Made by a program: the position numbers and the translations under genes
Notes under the pieces: model-generated
Told to the model about the DNA's origin: nothing
What the model saw: the letters and a program-made list of their open reading frames with translations, nothing else
The model's database searches: none
NCBI GenBank assembly: GCA_017430725.1
Contig: JAFRMK010000002.1
Coordinates: 1-64,000 of the forward strand
DNA from: Candidatus Saccharimonadota bacterium
GTDB lineage: Bacteria; Patescibacteriota; Saccharimonadia; Saccharimonadales; Saccharimonadaceae
Reading direction: 5' to 3'
DNA length: 64,000 nucleotides
Part shown: positions 26,130 to 55,660 of the stretch, piece after piece
Layout: every line of letters starts with the position of its first letter
Numbering within the stretch: the stretch's first letter is position 1

Positions 26130-28517
26130 CTATTTCACGACAATATTCACAAGATGGTTCTTTGTGACAACAATTGTCTTGACGATTGTTTTGTCGGCGA
26201 GCATTGATTTAATTTTGGCGTCGTCTTTAGCGATTTTTTCTAGACTGGCGGCATCGTTTGCATGTTCGCTGGCGACTGCAATGCGGGCGCGTAATTTACC
26301 ATTGATTTGGACGACCAGCTCGACGGTTTCTTCCTGGAGATATGTTTCGTCGAATTGCGGCCAAGTGTCGTCAGCTTGTAATGTTTCAAGCATCTCGCAG
26401 GCGAGGTGGGGCGCAAATGGTTTAAGCAATTTGGCTAGTATGATTAAATCTTCGCGATTGGCGCCAGTTTTGAAGAGCTGGTTGACGTATTCCATCAGGC
26501 TGGCGACGGCAGTATTGAAGTTTGCGCGGCGAATGTCGTCAGTAACTTTTTTAATGGTCTTGTGGCGAACCGAGATATTTGCATCAGCTTTGACGGTTTT
26601 CTTGTCAAAGCAGAGCGTCCAGCAGCGATTAAGGAAGCGGTAGACGCCGCCAATCGCTTCTGTACTCCAAGAGGCATCGAGATTATATGGGCCGATGAAA
26701 AGTTCGTAAGTGCGCAAGGTGTCGGCACCGTAGCCTTGGTCAATCACATCGAGCGGGTCGATGCCGTTGCCCTTTGATTTGGACATTTTTTTGCCATCGG
26801 AAGCGTTGATGTAACCGTTATAGAGCAGCTTCTTGATTGGCTCGCGAAAATCCAAATAGCCTTCATCGGCAAAGAACTTGCACCAGAAGCGCACGTACAG
26901 CAAATGCGCCACTGCATGGTCACCGCCACAATAAATGTCTGTTGGCGCCCAGTAGTTAACCTTTTTCTTGTCCCATGCGGCTTTTTTGTTGTGTGGGTCG
27001 GTGTAGCGCCAGAGATACCAGCTACTACAGGCATATCCGTCCAGCGTGTCGGTCTCGCGGGTCATTTCTTCGCCGTCAATTATTACTTTCGTAAACTCTT
27101 TAGACTTCGCCAATGCACTGCGCCCGGATTCATCTGGCTTATAATCGTCGATTTTCGGCAATGTTACGGGTAGCTGGTCTTCTGGAATAGCATGGGCTTT
27201 GCCATTTTTATCGTAAGCGATCGGAATGGGGCATCCCCAGTAGCGCTGGCGAGAGATGAGCCAATCGCGCATCCGATAAGTGACTTTTTTATTGCCGAGT
27301 CCTTGCTGTTCGAGCCATGCGACTATCGCCTCGCGCACATCGGCGCTGTCTTGGCCGTTAAAATCGGCAGAGTTAATAATGGTGCCTTCACCGTCATAAC
27401 ACAGCGCATCATCTTTGGCCGTTTCAGGCTTCTCGATGACCTTGACGATTGGCAAGTCGAATTTCTCGGCAAAATCATGGTCGCGTTGGTCGTGCGCCGG
27501 CACGGCCATTACGGCGCCCGTGCCATAACCACTCAAAACGTAATCTGCCACCCAGATGGGGATTTTTGCGCCGTTGGCCGGATTAATGGCGTAGGCGCCT
27601 GTGAAGACGCCAGTCTTCTCTTTATTTTCTTGACGTTCGATTTCGCTTTTCTTGATGGCGGTTTCACAGTATGCCTGTACGGCTTCACGCGCATCGTCGT
27701 TTACTAATTTTGGAATGATGGTATTTTCGGGCGCCAAGACCATGAAAGTAGCGCCAAAGAGCGTGTCTGGTCGGGTCGTGAAAACACGAATTTTCGTATC
27801 CTTTTGGTCGGCAACCGCAAAATCGATTTCCGCGCCCTCGCTCCGGCCAATCCAGTTTTTTTGCATGGTCTTGATTTTCTCTGGCCAATCAAGCGCATCG
27901 ATTTCGTCCAACAGCTCATCGGCGTACGCAGTGATTTTGAAGAACCATTGTTTCATTTTTTTCTTCTCGACCTCTGCGCCACAACGCCAGCAATGACCAT
28001 TTTCGACCTGTTCGTTGGCGAGGACGGTCTTATCTTCTGGGCACCACCACTGAAAACTCTCTGCTTGGTAGGCTAAACCTTTTTTGTAGAGCTGAAGAAA
28101 ACACCACTGAGTCCATTTGTAGTATTCTGGGTCGGAAGTGTTGATTTCGCGCGACCAGTCAATTGCGAAACCGAGCCGCTTGGCTTGCTTACGGAAATTG
28201 TCGATGTTTGTCTTGGTTACGGCCTGGGGCGCAATTCCGGTCTTGATGGCGTAATTCTCGGCCGGCAGACCAAAGGTGTCATAGCCGAACGGGCGCATGA
28301 CATTCATGCCATTCTGGGCATAGAAGCGCGCCAAACAGTCCACAATTGAGAAGTTTCGCACGTGGCCAACATGAAGCCCGATGGACGAAGGATAAGGGAA
28401 CATCTCGGCAAGATACATTTTTGGTTGCTTGGCAAGGTCCTTGCAGGCAAAAGCTTGAGTTTCTTCCCAGCGTTTTTGCCATTTTTGTTCAATCTTCAAT
28501 GGTTCGTAGTGGCTCAT
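26130..28517 (-). CDS. leuS: Leucyl-tRNA synthetase
   Basis: This 795-residue class Ia synthetase has the HIGH-equivalent HVGH in FPYPSSIGLHVGHVRNF (about 45), a CP1 editing domain with GTGAVMAVPAHDQRDHDFA, a KMSKS loop (DGKKMSKSKGNGID, about 583) and an anticodon-binding domain. A zinc motif remains (CPEDKTVL, then CWRCGAE). It charges tRNA-Leu; two tRNA-Leu genes lie in the window. The ATG at 28517 is 8 bases after a TATAAT, so the leader is minimal. It is convergent with the sortase gene and divergent from the PBP gene. Confidence 0.98.
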   Translation of the reverse strand: MSHYEPLKIEQKWQKRWEETQAFACKDLAKQPKMYLAEMFPYPSSIGLHVGHVRNFSIVDCLARFYAQNGMNVMRPFGYDTFGLPAENYAIKTGIAPQAVTKTNIDNFRKQAKRLGFAIDWSREINTSDPEYYKWTQWCFLQLYKKGLAYQAESFQWWCPEDKTVLANEQVENGHCWRCGAEVEKKKMKQWFFKITAYADELLDEIDALDWPEKIKTMQKNWIGRSEGAEIDFAVADQKDTKIRVFTTRPDTLFGATFMVLAPENTIIPKLVNDDAREAVQAYCETAIKKSEIERQENKEKTGVFTGAYAINPANGAKIPIWVADYVLSGYGTGAVMAVPAHDQRDHDFAEKFDLPIVKVIEKPETAKDDALCYDGEGTIINSADFNGQDSADVREAIVAWLEQQGLGNKKVTYRMRDWLISRQRYWGCPIPIAYDKNGKAHAIPEDQLPVTLPKIDDYKPDESGRSALAKSKEFTKVIIDGEEMTRETDTLDGYACSSWYLWRYTDPHNKKAAWDKKKVNYWAPTDIYCGGDHAVAHLLYVRFWCKFFADEGYLDFREPIKKLLYNGYINASDGKKMSKSKGNGIDPLDVIDQGYGADTLRTYELFIGPYNLDASWSTEAIGGVYRFLNRCWTLCFDKKTVKADANISVRHKTIKKVTDDIRRANFNTAVASLMEYVNQLFKTGANREDLIILAKLLKPFAPHLACEMLETLQADDTWPQFDETYLQEETVELVVQINGKLRARIAVASEHANDAASLEKIAKDDAKIKSMLADKTIVKTIVVTKNHLVNIVVK

Positions 28518-33141: not shown

Positions 33142-33897
33142 CTAGTCGGGCCTCAGCATCCACGAGCTGACGCCGAAACTTTGTACGATACCGCTAAGTT
33201 CGAGCAGGCTGATTTGCTGATTAAAATCTGTTGCGTCTATTTTGAGTCGCTCAATTAATTCGCCGCTGGCGCAAGCGCCTTTTTCTAGTTCGTGGACGAT
33301 TTGGCGCGCGAGCTCGCTGAGTTGATTTAGCTGCTGGTTTTTTCGACGGCGTCGCACGACGCTCGCCCCAAATAAATCAATCAGAAAATCTTCAATGCCG
33401 ACGATTGGATGGGCGCCCATCTTCAAAAGCTTATTGCAGCCAGCCGAAGTGGGGCGCATGATGTCGCCCGGCACGGCGTATAGATCTCGGCCAAGCTCTA
33501 CGGCGCATTGTGCCGTGCGCTGAGTACCAGAACGCTCGCCCGCTTCAACGATAATAGTAGCGTCAGATAGCCCGACAACAATCCGATTCCTGTGCAGAAA
33601 ATGCCAGGCCCTGGTTTCGGTTTCGGGCGAATATTCAGATAAAATTGCACCATTTTGGAGAATCCGTTCGGCAAGACGTCGGTTGCTCTGGGGGTAGATT
33701 TTGTCAATTGGCGTGCCGAGTACGGCAACAGTCGTACCGCCGGCATCCAGACAACCGCGGTGGGCCGCCGTATCAATGCCGTAGGCCATACCGCTGATAA
33801 TGACGACCCCCTGCTCGGCCAAAGCATAAGCCAGGCGATAAGCGATATCCTCGCCGTATTTAGTGCAACGGCGCGCGCCAACAATACTGATTACCAT
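33142..33897 (-). CDS. dprA: DNA processing protein DprA, core domain after an in-frame UGA
   Basis: The 251 residues from ATG 33897 are the DprA/Smf Rossmann domain (VISIVGARRCTKYGEDIAYRLA, SGMAYGIDTAAHRGCLDAGG, ERSGTQRTAQCAVELGRDLYAVPGD) plus a winged-helix tail. DprA loads RecA on incoming single-stranded DNA in transformation. The frame continues upstream to ATG 34020 (...LREIKEPPVDEL-UGA-QIGSLPQAAG-MVISIVG), interrupted only by TGA at 33928-33930, where homologues have an aromatic residue (LYxxGxLP). The upstream ATG has a -10 exactly 6 bases before it, so the full gene is 33142-34020. Either UGA is read through, translation restarts at 33897, or it is a recent pseudogene. Confidence 0.9.
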   Translation of the reverse strand: MVISIVGARRCTKYGEDIAYRLAYALAEQGVVIISGMAYGIDTAAHRGCLDAGGTTVAVLGTPIDKIYPQSNRRLAERILQNGAILSEYSPETETRAWHFLHRNRIVVGLSDATIIVEAGERSGTQRTAQCAVELGRDLYAVPGDIMRPTSAGCNKLLKMGAHPIVGIEDFLIDLFGASVVRRRRKNQQLNQLSELARQIVHELEKGACASGELIERLKIDATDFNQQISLLELSGIVQSFGVSSWMLRPD

Positions 33898-34020
33898 GCC
33901 GGCAGCTTGAGGCAGCGAACCAATTTGTCAGAGCTCGTCGACGGGCGGCTCTTTTATCTCGCGCAAGTCGGCGAGTTTGGTGAGAAATGGTTGGGCGAGT
34001 TCGGCTTTTTGATAATTCAT
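33898..34020 (-). other. N-terminal segment of dprA ahead of the in-frame UGA
   Basis: This stretch holds 30 codons from ATG 34020, then TGA, then 10 codons in the same frame into the DprA core. The encoded KLADLREIKEPP looks like the normal DprA N-terminal linker. There are no frameshifts and no other stops. Confidence 0.65.
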
Positions 34021-53387: not shown

Positions 53388-54899
53388 CTAAGTCGGATGT
53401 CGCTTCAGATAGTCGCAACCGTAACGGAAGTTTGAGCAGTATGAAATATTCCCTTTGCGCAGTAATTCGCCAGAACGACAGCGCGGACAGAGCTTCTGGT
53501 ATAGCTCGTTCAATTCGTCAGATATCTCGAATAAAAACGGTGACGGATGTTGACGCTCGGCAATTAGATAGGTGGCGCGCCTAGCACGCGTGATTGCGAC
53601 ATAGAACAGTCGACGCTCTTCGGCGAAGGCGTAGTTTTCGGCACGCGACAGCAATAAGTCGCTGAGTGGATCGGTGTCGCGCGTCGCCGGCATGCCGTGG
53701 GGCGTGGAATTCATATTTAGCACGATTACCACATCGCGCGTAATGCCTTTCGACTTGTGCATCGAGCAAAACGGGATGATTTTTCCGCGCCACGATACGG
53801 CTTCGGCGGATAAGACCGTAAAATCCGGCATAGACTGGAGCCGGGAAATATCGTGATTGTAGCGAGAAATAATCTGTAGCTCCAGGTCGGCAAATGCGGT
53901 CGCCTGCTCATCGTGCAGTTTTGTCAGAACTCGAAGTAGCGCCGGTGTATCATTCCCGCGCTGACTGCTCAACACAACGTTGACCGGTGTATGGCGCTGA
54001 GGGTCGCCACGAATTTGCTTGCGGACTTGTTGGGGGTTTTTCGTGACAAAATCGCAACTAACGCGAATTGTCGGCTGGCCAAAACGATGTGTTTGCTCAA
54101 TCAGGCTGCGACGTGTGTGCAAGCTGAAATGTCGCTCGAAATCATAGATTAAATCAAGCCGGCTGCCGGTAAAGCGATAAATCGATTGCCAGTCATCGCC
54201 CACGGCGAAAAAACGACAACCCGGATTTTTGGCGAGAATGGCCTTGATAAGCCGGAACCGATTGGGCGACAAATCTTGCGCCTCGTCCAACAGAACATAG
54301 CGATAACCTTTAGCGCACTCGGCGATATCACCGACGGCCCTCGTTGCCTGGTTTATCATGTCTACGAAATCGTAGCCCTGATGGTCGTCCAGCCATCGCC
54401 GATACGCATAAAACAGCGGGCGAAACAGGCGCAGAAATGCACGTGCTCGACGACGCGCATAGCTGTCATGATTTTGCTTAAGCTGACGCGAAAGACGCGC
54501 AAAACTCATCAAGCTATTCTTAAATTGAAGGATATAGGCACGAAGATAGTCGATAAACGAATCGAGTTCCTTGCAAAGCTGAGGCGTCCGGATGATGTGG
54601 GTGAGAATAGTCGCCTCTTCCAGGCGTCGGGGTGTGATGCCCTGTCGTTTGAGAAATCTGCTTAGGCGAACGAAAACTGATTCATCATTCCAGTCGGCAG
54701 TCTTCAGTTGCAGATAGGGGCTTTGCTGAGCAGAATGAAAGCGTCGGCGCCATCGGCAATCGTGCAGGTAGGCCAAGCCATAGAAGCTGCGGCCGGCCTT
54801 GTCTCGTTCAACCAAATCGACATAGGCGGTTTTAGCCCCAAACGAAATCGTAAAACTAGGGCGATAATCTGGGCGTGACGGATGTGGCACGGACAGCAA
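53388..54899 (-). CDS. UvrD-like superfamily 1 helicase, C-terminal part after an in-frame UGA
   Basis: These 503 or so residues carry helicase motifs II (LLDEAQDLSP), III (VGDDWQSIYRFTGS), IV (EQTHRFGQPT), V (HKSKGITRDVVIVLN) and VI (EERRLFYVAITRARR), then a C-terminal four-cysteine ribbon (LCPRCRSGELL, then YCSNFRYGCDYL). Together with the piece at 54924-55520 they form one SF1 helicase of about 710 residues: the two are in the same frame and separated only by TGA at 54924-54926. Homologues have an aromatic residue there, before a short strand leading to YRPSFTI. All motifs are intact, so the gene does not look decayed. TTG 54899 is an unlikely start. Confidence 0.85.
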   Translation of the reverse strand: MLSVPHPSRPDYRPSFTISFGAKTAYVDLVERDKAGRSFYGLAYLHDCRWRRRFHSAQQSPYLQLKTADWNDESVFVRLSRFLKRQGITPRRLEEATILTHIIRTPQLCKELDSFIDYLRAYILQFKNSLMSFARLSRQLKQNHDSYARRRARAFLRLFRPLFYAYRRWLDDHQGYDFVDMINQATRAVGDIAECAKGYRYVLLDEAQDLSPNRFRLIKAILAKNPGCRFFAVGDDWQSIYRFTGSRLDLIYDFERHFSLHTRRSLIEQTHRFGQPTIRVSCDFVTKNPQQVRKQIRGDPQRHTPVNVVLSSQRGNDTPALLRVLTKLHDEQATAFADLELQIISRYNHDISRLQSMPDFTVLSAEAVSWRGKIIPFCSMHKSKGITRDVVIVLNMNSTPHGMPATRDTDPLSDLLLSRAENYAFAEERRLFYVAITRARRATYLIAERQHPSPFLFEISDELNELYQKLCPRCRSGELLRKGNISYCSNFRYGCDYLKRHPT

Positions 54900-54923
54900 A
54901 AATGGAATGCGATGAATGAATAG

Positions 54924-55520
54924 TCAGTTAGCAACGAGCTCGAGCTCTTTGCTGCGTGGCGCCTGCGCGACAAGCGCACGCCGAAGATAGCGTTGATTGA
55001 AGCGGACCTTTTGCTGGTGGTTTTGGTGAGCGCCAACGCTCTGCGGAGACGAATAATAGAACAGCAAGAAGTCATTGAAGGCGCGCGCAAACTGTGGGTT
55101 TTCGCAATGTTGGCGCCAAATATAGCGCCGGACAAAAGCCAGTTGGCTCTCGGCCGTCACCAAGCGGCGCCGCCCCAGGTCTCGTCGCTCGATAAACTGC
55201 AAAAGGCTATTGCCTAGACTATGAAAAGTCCGTATTTCGACGTCGGGATAAGGACATCGTTCGACGAGTTCACGCACGGTTTTATTCGTGAAGGAGATGA
55301 CTAAAATTTGGGGTGGCGGTATTTTTAATCCCGCCACGAGATAGCGAATCTTCGCCATCAAGCTCAACGTTTTACCGCTACCGGCCGAAGCCAGCACTAA
55401 TTGGGCATCTTCGCAGGCGATTACCGCCTCGTGCTGTTGCGCATCGAGTCGACAACCGTCAAATTCTAGCCCCTTTCGTAACTCGCGATGCAAGAAGCGC
55501 CGATTGTGCAAATGGCGCAT
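54924..55520 (-). CDS. UvrD-like superfamily 1 helicase, N-terminal part before an in-frame UGA
   Basis: These 198 residues carry the Q-motif region (LDAQQHEAVIACEDAQLVLAS), Walker A ASAGSGKT (about 45-52) and motif Ia (ISFTNKTVRELVER), and end with the segment leading to ELELVAN-UGA-LFIHRIPF. The frame also continues upstream of ATG 55520: four codons before it is another TGA (55533-55535), and before that an open stretch back to ATG 55580, 55604 or 55643. The upstream residues (SRQ-like STRQ, UGA, IIERMRHLHNRRF) read as a normal helical N-terminus if UGA encodes Trp. Transcription start not identified. Confidence 0.85.
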   Translation of the reverse strand: MRHLHNRRFLHRELRKGLEFDGCRLDAQQHEAVIACEDAQLVLASAGSGKTLSLMAKIRYLVAGLKIPPPQILVISFTNKTVRELVERCPYPDVEIRTFHSLGNSLLQFIERRDLGRRRLVTAESQLAFVRRYIWRQHCENPQFARAFNDFLLFYYSSPQSVGAHQNHQQKVRFNQRYLRRALVAQAPRSKELELVAN

Positions 55521-55660
55521 GCGCTCAATGATTCATTGCCTCGTCGATTCAGCATAGGGGACATAGTATTTTTTACGCATCAGCTGGACAATCGCACTAA
55601 ACATACCGTCATTTTCCGTCTTTTTTAAACTTTTTAAAAACATGAGCATAAAGAATTCGG

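Follow-up and report, generated by a model that had tools for sequence, protein, structure and literature searches.

In-frame UGA codons at tryptophan positions of a helicase and of DNA-uptake genes in a genus of Saccharimonadaceae: a candidate translational gate

The window, a stretch of 64,000 nucleotides from a Candidatus Saccharimonadota bacterium (assembly GCA_017430725.1), is contig 4 of a genome of 688,696 bases in 10 contigs that is 98.4% complete and is referred to here as G000. The following features on its minus strand were mapped.

53388..55580, minus strand: helicase-IV/UvrD-like gene of 730 codons with two in-frame UGA codons (read here as Trp), a TAG stop and a C-terminal Cys4 ribbon
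55533..55535, minus strand: first in-frame UGA of the helicase gene (alignment column 127)
54924..54926, minus strand: second in-frame UGA of the helicase gene (context 'LVAN*LFIHR', alignment column 348)
33142..34020, minus strand: dprA (TIGR00732) with start ATG at 34020, stop TAG at 33142-33144 and one in-frame UGA
33928..33930, minus strand: in-frame UGA of dprA (context 'VDEL*QIGSLP')

The helicase frame runs from 55643, or from further upstream, to the TAG at 53388-53390 and is broken only by the two TGA codons, with neither TAA, TAG nor frameshift, as had been claimed in a preliminary description of this DNA and was confirmed here on the minus strand. The placing of the helicase in one frame was likewise borne out, as Pfam detected within it the two halves of an enzyme of the UvrD/helicase-IV type. 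The ATG at 55580 is the most likely start because relatives begin with 'MLQRYIPYS...' or 'MLQKYISYN...'. The closest NCBIfam model was PRK11054 (helicase IV, E 5e-83), and since the score of 279.7 bits lies below the family cut-off of 543, the protein was named helicase-IV-like and not filed as helicase IV. Motifs including GDDWQ are common to the window helicase, E. coli helicase IV (HelD) and UvrD-like SF1A helicases, whereas an extra inserted region and the C-terminal Cys4 ribbon, both predicted from the translation, set it apart from E. coli helicase IV. The UGA of dprA had been overlooked in the preliminary description; under the standard code this ORF would begin after the UGA, at 33897.

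The search of 60 relatives yielded 20 further full-length helicase homologues from the same genus with 47-60% identity. One to four in-frame TGA codons were found in 17 of these 20 (18 of 21 when the window gene is counted), UAA and UAG always being absent, and the gene is missing from part of the genus. At column 127, the first UGA of the window gene, TGG is present in G014, G028, G034 and G035, TGA in G005, G027, G031 and G036 besides the window gene, and other residues in the remaining homologues. At column 348, the second UGA, 18 of the 22 homologues have Trp, three have TGA (G000, G024 and G025) and one has Leu. Similar exchanges were seen at column 427 (11 Trp, 10 TGA, 1 Phe), at column 597 in the GDDWQ motif (23 Trp, 2 TGA) and at column 740 (19 Trp, 6 TGA). 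The earlier suggestion that a Trp or other aromatic residue fits both UGA sites, and that UGA may be read as Trp, was therefore upheld by the TGG codons of relatives at both sites and by TGA/TGG swaps at invariant Trp positions.

The alignment of 25 same-genus homologues (781 columns) contains 43 in-frame TGAs, among which 23 fall within the six majority-Trp columns and 37 within the 30 columns holding any Trp. By parsimony at least 20 TGA/TGG switches were counted on the helicase tree. TAA or TAG in frame was not found in any of the 25 homologues, despite 790 Gln codons that are one C-to-T transition away from a stop. Close species gave a dN/dS of 0.06-0.10, with 0.02-0.09 for the part that follows the last UGA; the UGA-free pair G034/G035 gave ~0.09, similar to the UGA-bearing pairs. 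The switches, the missing TAA and TAG and the low dN/dS together indicate, therefore, that the helicase protein beyond every UGA is made and selected, and the absence of TAA/TAG with dN/dS of 0.02-0.10 agrees with the earlier judgement that random decay was unlikely. Signs of selenocysteine were absent, as the helicase UGAs stand at Trp positions and no UCA tRNA was found in G000. The bases after the UGAs were mostly A or C and rarely G, and a clear motif was not seen.

All frames of G000 (~98.6% of the genome) were scanned with TGA read as W and aligned to large parts of G034, G022 and G006. Genes with UGA-Trp were the helicase (two UGA), dprA (one), comEC (two), comFC (one) and a secreted cutinase/PKD-like gene (one), and comM of G000 contained no in-frame UGA. 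The genome-wide count of in-frame UGA that had been proposed earlier thus showed UGA-Trp outside the helicase as well, limited in the scanned part of G000 to these five genes. The aligned set comprised 444 genes holding 1393 TGG; the com genes and the helicase had ~20 TGG and 6 UGA against ~1370 TGG and 1 UGA elsewhere, a split that would arise by chance at the order of 1e-10 by a rough hand estimate for a gene set named after it was seen. That the recoding is largely confined to DNA-uptake genes had also been overlooked in the preliminary description. Extra UGA genes in the raw scans were discarded, being mostly antisense or out-of-frame shadows or lying upstream of true starts.

The cutinase-like gene (G000:C2:83700-85300) codes for a secreted protein with a PKD domain and has its UGA where the G034 homologue has Trp; it is perhaps a further member of the DNA-uptake module. 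A lamin-tail-domain (LTD) surface protein in G022 (G022:C7:51600-53000) has one in-frame UGA against TGG in G034. The scan also detected UGA in comM/yifB of G006 and G022. Upstream of comM (G006:C8 ~6780 and G022:C8 ~10280) lies a strongly conserved stretch with TGA in frame, possibly an RNA or a small gene.

The in-frame UGA was found to be widespread in competence genes of the genus. In comFC it occurs in 28 of the 30 matched genus genomes (27 plus G000, whose UGA adjoins the model match upstream), in comM in 15 genus genomes, in dprA in 11 of 21 genus genomes against 0 of 14 others, and in the core domain of comEC in 11 of 37 genus genomes. The comEC analysis was limited to conserved columns because the N-terminal columns carry noise from the 5' flank in all families. 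No in-frame UGA was present in the comFC and dprA matches of other families, nor in the comEC core domains listed for other families, among them those from a broader sampling of the order; sister genera were compared through this ComEC core domain. Within the genus the distribution was uneven: of the genes scored, comFC alone carries UGA in G034, G035 and G011, and the matched core regions of the com genes scored are free of it in G002 and G013. Several UGA codons may occur within one comEC, like the up to four within one helicase. The comEC frames of the sister genus g27 (G092, G228, G241, G243, G247 and G263) measure 349-410 codons against ~490, and this shortness could reflect N-terminal stops there too.

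At individual columns the UGA again exchanged with Trp. Among genus members DprA column 105, which holds the UGA at 33928-33930, has nine Trp, six UGA and four Tyr; other families have Tyr or Phe there. At ComM column 299 the genus shows six Trp, seven UGA, two Phe and one Val, and Tyr prevails outside it. These two patterns thus place some UGA sites at Trp positions that are new to the genus. At ComEC columns 374 and 407 each of the 11 other families sampled has Trp, and UGA stands there in G006 or G024. Taken together, the homologue comparison supports read-through as Trp or selective recoding, as first proposed for the helicase, and decoding of UGA as Trp in the helicase and com genes appears strongly supported. 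The use of UGA-Trp seems largely restricted to comEC, comFC, dprA, comM/yifB and the helicase, and to this genus, as far as sampled. ComM/YifB is a competence helicase in other bacteria. A transfer of these genes from a code-4 organism was considered unlikely because genus members carry a mixture of TGG and TGA with switches between them, and the com copies of other families have no UGA.

UGA also serves as a stop in these genomes. It terminates 38 of the 418 G000 genes (~9%), for example a grpE-like gene, and the next in-frame stop behind UGA-ended genes follows at a median of 7 codons against 13 (p 1e-6), to which gene overlaps could contribute. Such a nearer backup stop is expected if UGA is leaky. 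Of 61 genomes, 56 have an RF2 that scores above the family cut-off; G000 is one of them, with the gene located as follows.

L354:3492-4529: RF2 gene of G000

The SPF and GGQ motifs are retained in RF2 of the genus. Just before GGQ an Arg-to-His change was found in 14 of 14 genus genomes, Arg being present in correctly read sequences of other families, and an Asp-to-Asn change near GGQ was found in 13 of the 14. RF1 of G000 keeps the Arg. The Arg-to-His change in RF2 would also fit a leaky UGA in this genus. The leucyl-tRNA synthetase (LeuRS) showed no internal stop across 61 genomes, and its copy in the window holds 23 Trp. This window copy (26133-28517) has ~795 aa, as in most genus members, and LeuRS of G004, G005, G021, G027 and G036 reaches ~940 aa and contains, near query residues 365-375, a stretch without a match; it is possible that the shorter form lost the editing domain.

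A tRNA-Trp with UCA anticodon, or an unusual CCA tRNA, had been named earlier as a possible decoder, and neither was found. ARAGORN predicted 41 tRNAs in 679 kb of G000, none with anticodon UCA, and the covered portion of G034 (800 kb, 40 tRNAs including tRNA-His) also lacked a UCA tRNA. Since tRNA-His and some other isoacceptors are missing from the 679 kb of G000, some tRNAs must lie in gaps or have been missed. The tRNA-Trp genes of the genus recovered by similarity search have the normal CCA anticodon together with G24 and an anticodon stem of 5 bp; neither the Hirsh G24A change nor a short anticodon stem was seen in them. The 14-base insert in tRNA-Trp of G006 consisted of scaffold Ns. 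Lysidine on tRNA-Trp through a second TilS was rejected, as genus members have a single TilS gene.

With moderate confidence we propose that decoding of UGA as Trp competes with RF2, and that a set of DNA-uptake genes uses UGA as a translational gate. UGA would then have two meanings in the genus, an RF2-dependent stop for a minority of genes and Trp inside a defined gene set. The one near-cognate tRNA-Trp(CCA) would most likely be the decoder, by outcompeting RF2. Full-length DNA-uptake proteins would be produced in quantity under high read-through, as with limiting RF2, and otherwise they would not. The helicase would belong to this DNA-uptake/recombination module as well. That read-through may be regulated is suggested because UGA is limited to one module and because several UGA per gene would hardly be supported by weak constitutive read-through. 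We infer the gate, the regulation of read-through and the CCA-tRNA as decoder from evidence that is comparative throughout. The RF2 change beside GGQ would be the only clue to the trigger. Several findings speak against the gate: RF2 retains SPF and GGQ, UGA occurs also in the cutinase-like (G000) and LTD (G022) genes, which have no known link to DNA uptake, some genus members have UGA in one gene alone or in none scored, and comM of G000 is free of it. Saccharibacteria have ComEC, DprA and ComFC as their core DNA-uptake proteins; in the cultured species S. epibionticum these make no significant contribution to fitness on the host, and comEC is required for transformation (PMC10633639). A further-reaching version is put forward tentatively, as possible though somewhat short of probable: the competence regulon would be written in a second code dialect in which a defined physiological state is required for UGA to be read as Trp in DNA-uptake genes, termination through the modified RF2 would be the master switch of gene transfer, and the codon would mark membership of the regulon.

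The proposed gate was weighed against four other explanations. In the first, which we regard as rather unlikely, UGA is constitutively leaky owing to a weak RF2, and genes in low demand can exchange TGG for TGA and back with little penalty and without regulation. This would agree with the genus-wide change in the GGQ loop, the backup stops close behind UGA stops, the frequent TGG/TGA switching at sites that are not fixed, and a com system that is dispensable for growth in the cultured relative (PMC10633639). However, such tolerance predicts UGA in many low-demand genes, and the scans, which covered G000 and much of G006, G022 and G034, detected almost none; PcrA/UvrD paralogues, LeuRS and TilS have no UGA; several UGA per gene would multiply the loss; and new Trp/UGA sites have appeared where other families have Tyr or Phe (ComM column 299 and DprA column 105). 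A gate worked by a conditional decoder, either a UCA tRNA that was unassembled or unrecognised or a modification of C34 in tRNA-Trp, appears improbable. The division of G000 into 10 contigs and the tRNAs absent from its 679 kb leave room for such a tRNA, but every tRNA-Trp read in the genus has CCA and G24 (the G006 copy being interrupted by Ns), the covered part of G034 yielded no UCA tRNA, and TilS is single copy. A genome-wide UGA=Trp code (table 4), to which the minority status of UGA among stops (38/418 genes of G000) might point, or an error of sequencing or assembly is very hard to sustain: RF2 and UGA stops including that of the grpE-like gene are kept, the housekeeping LeuRS of 61 genomes is free of UGA, and the same feature recurs in independent assemblies, UBA4387, RUI495 and RGIG2864 among the relatives. 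Finally, a decaying helicase pseudogene whose open frame is recent is scarcely credible, since in-frame stops as the usual sign of decay and the absence of the gene from part of the genus are outweighed by stops that are only UGA and mostly in Trp columns, by the missing TAA/TAG and dN/dS below ~0.1 past all UGAs, and by the same UGA pattern in several genes of tens of species.

The gate proposed here was compared with known systems. UGA likewise means Trp in Mycoplasmatales, Hodgkinia, Zinderia and the Patescibacteriota family JAKLIH01 (PMC13092985). Those codes are genome-wide, whereas the present genus keeps RF2, UGA stops and a standard tRNA-Trp(CCA) and has few UGA-Trp genes. In JAKLIH01, which belongs to the same phylum but another class, RF2 and UGA stops have been lost, and a UCA tRNA is present in two of four genomes (PMC13092985). 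Stage-specific stop-codon recoding in crAss-like and related phages (discussed in PMC10879173 and PMC11210395) likewise concerns a functional gene set with stops read as an amino acid, and timing has been proposed for it; the phages bring suppressor tRNAs, whereas here the genome is cellular, the set serves DNA uptake and suppressor tRNAs were not found. UGA-reading variants of E. coli tRNA-Trp(CCA) include Hirsh G24A, A9C and a 4-bp anticodon stem (PMC13092985). The likely decoder here is also tRNA-Trp(CCA), but the genus tRNA shows none of those changes, and a tRNA of wild-type appearance would have to read several UGA per mRNA.

In the open-access literature, neither UGA read-through in Saccharibacteria nor competence with UGA read-through was found; a chromosomal use of UGA as Trp limited to one pathway was also not found, JAKLIH01 being the Patescibacteriota reassignment encountered. 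No Saccharibacteria case is mentioned in a screen of >250,000 genomes (PMC8629427), as expected if only few genes per genome are affected. Thus, a stop codon with two meanings, largely in one pathway and alongside an ordinary tRNA set and RF2, is undescribed in the literature found. Because standard annotation breaks the UGA genes, this genus would be recorded as having lost competence; the UGA codon may also help to recognise new module members such as the helicase, the cutinase-like protein and the LTD protein. If true, the genus would represent a natural intermediate of codon reassignment, in which horizontal gene transfer is controlled at the level of translation termination.
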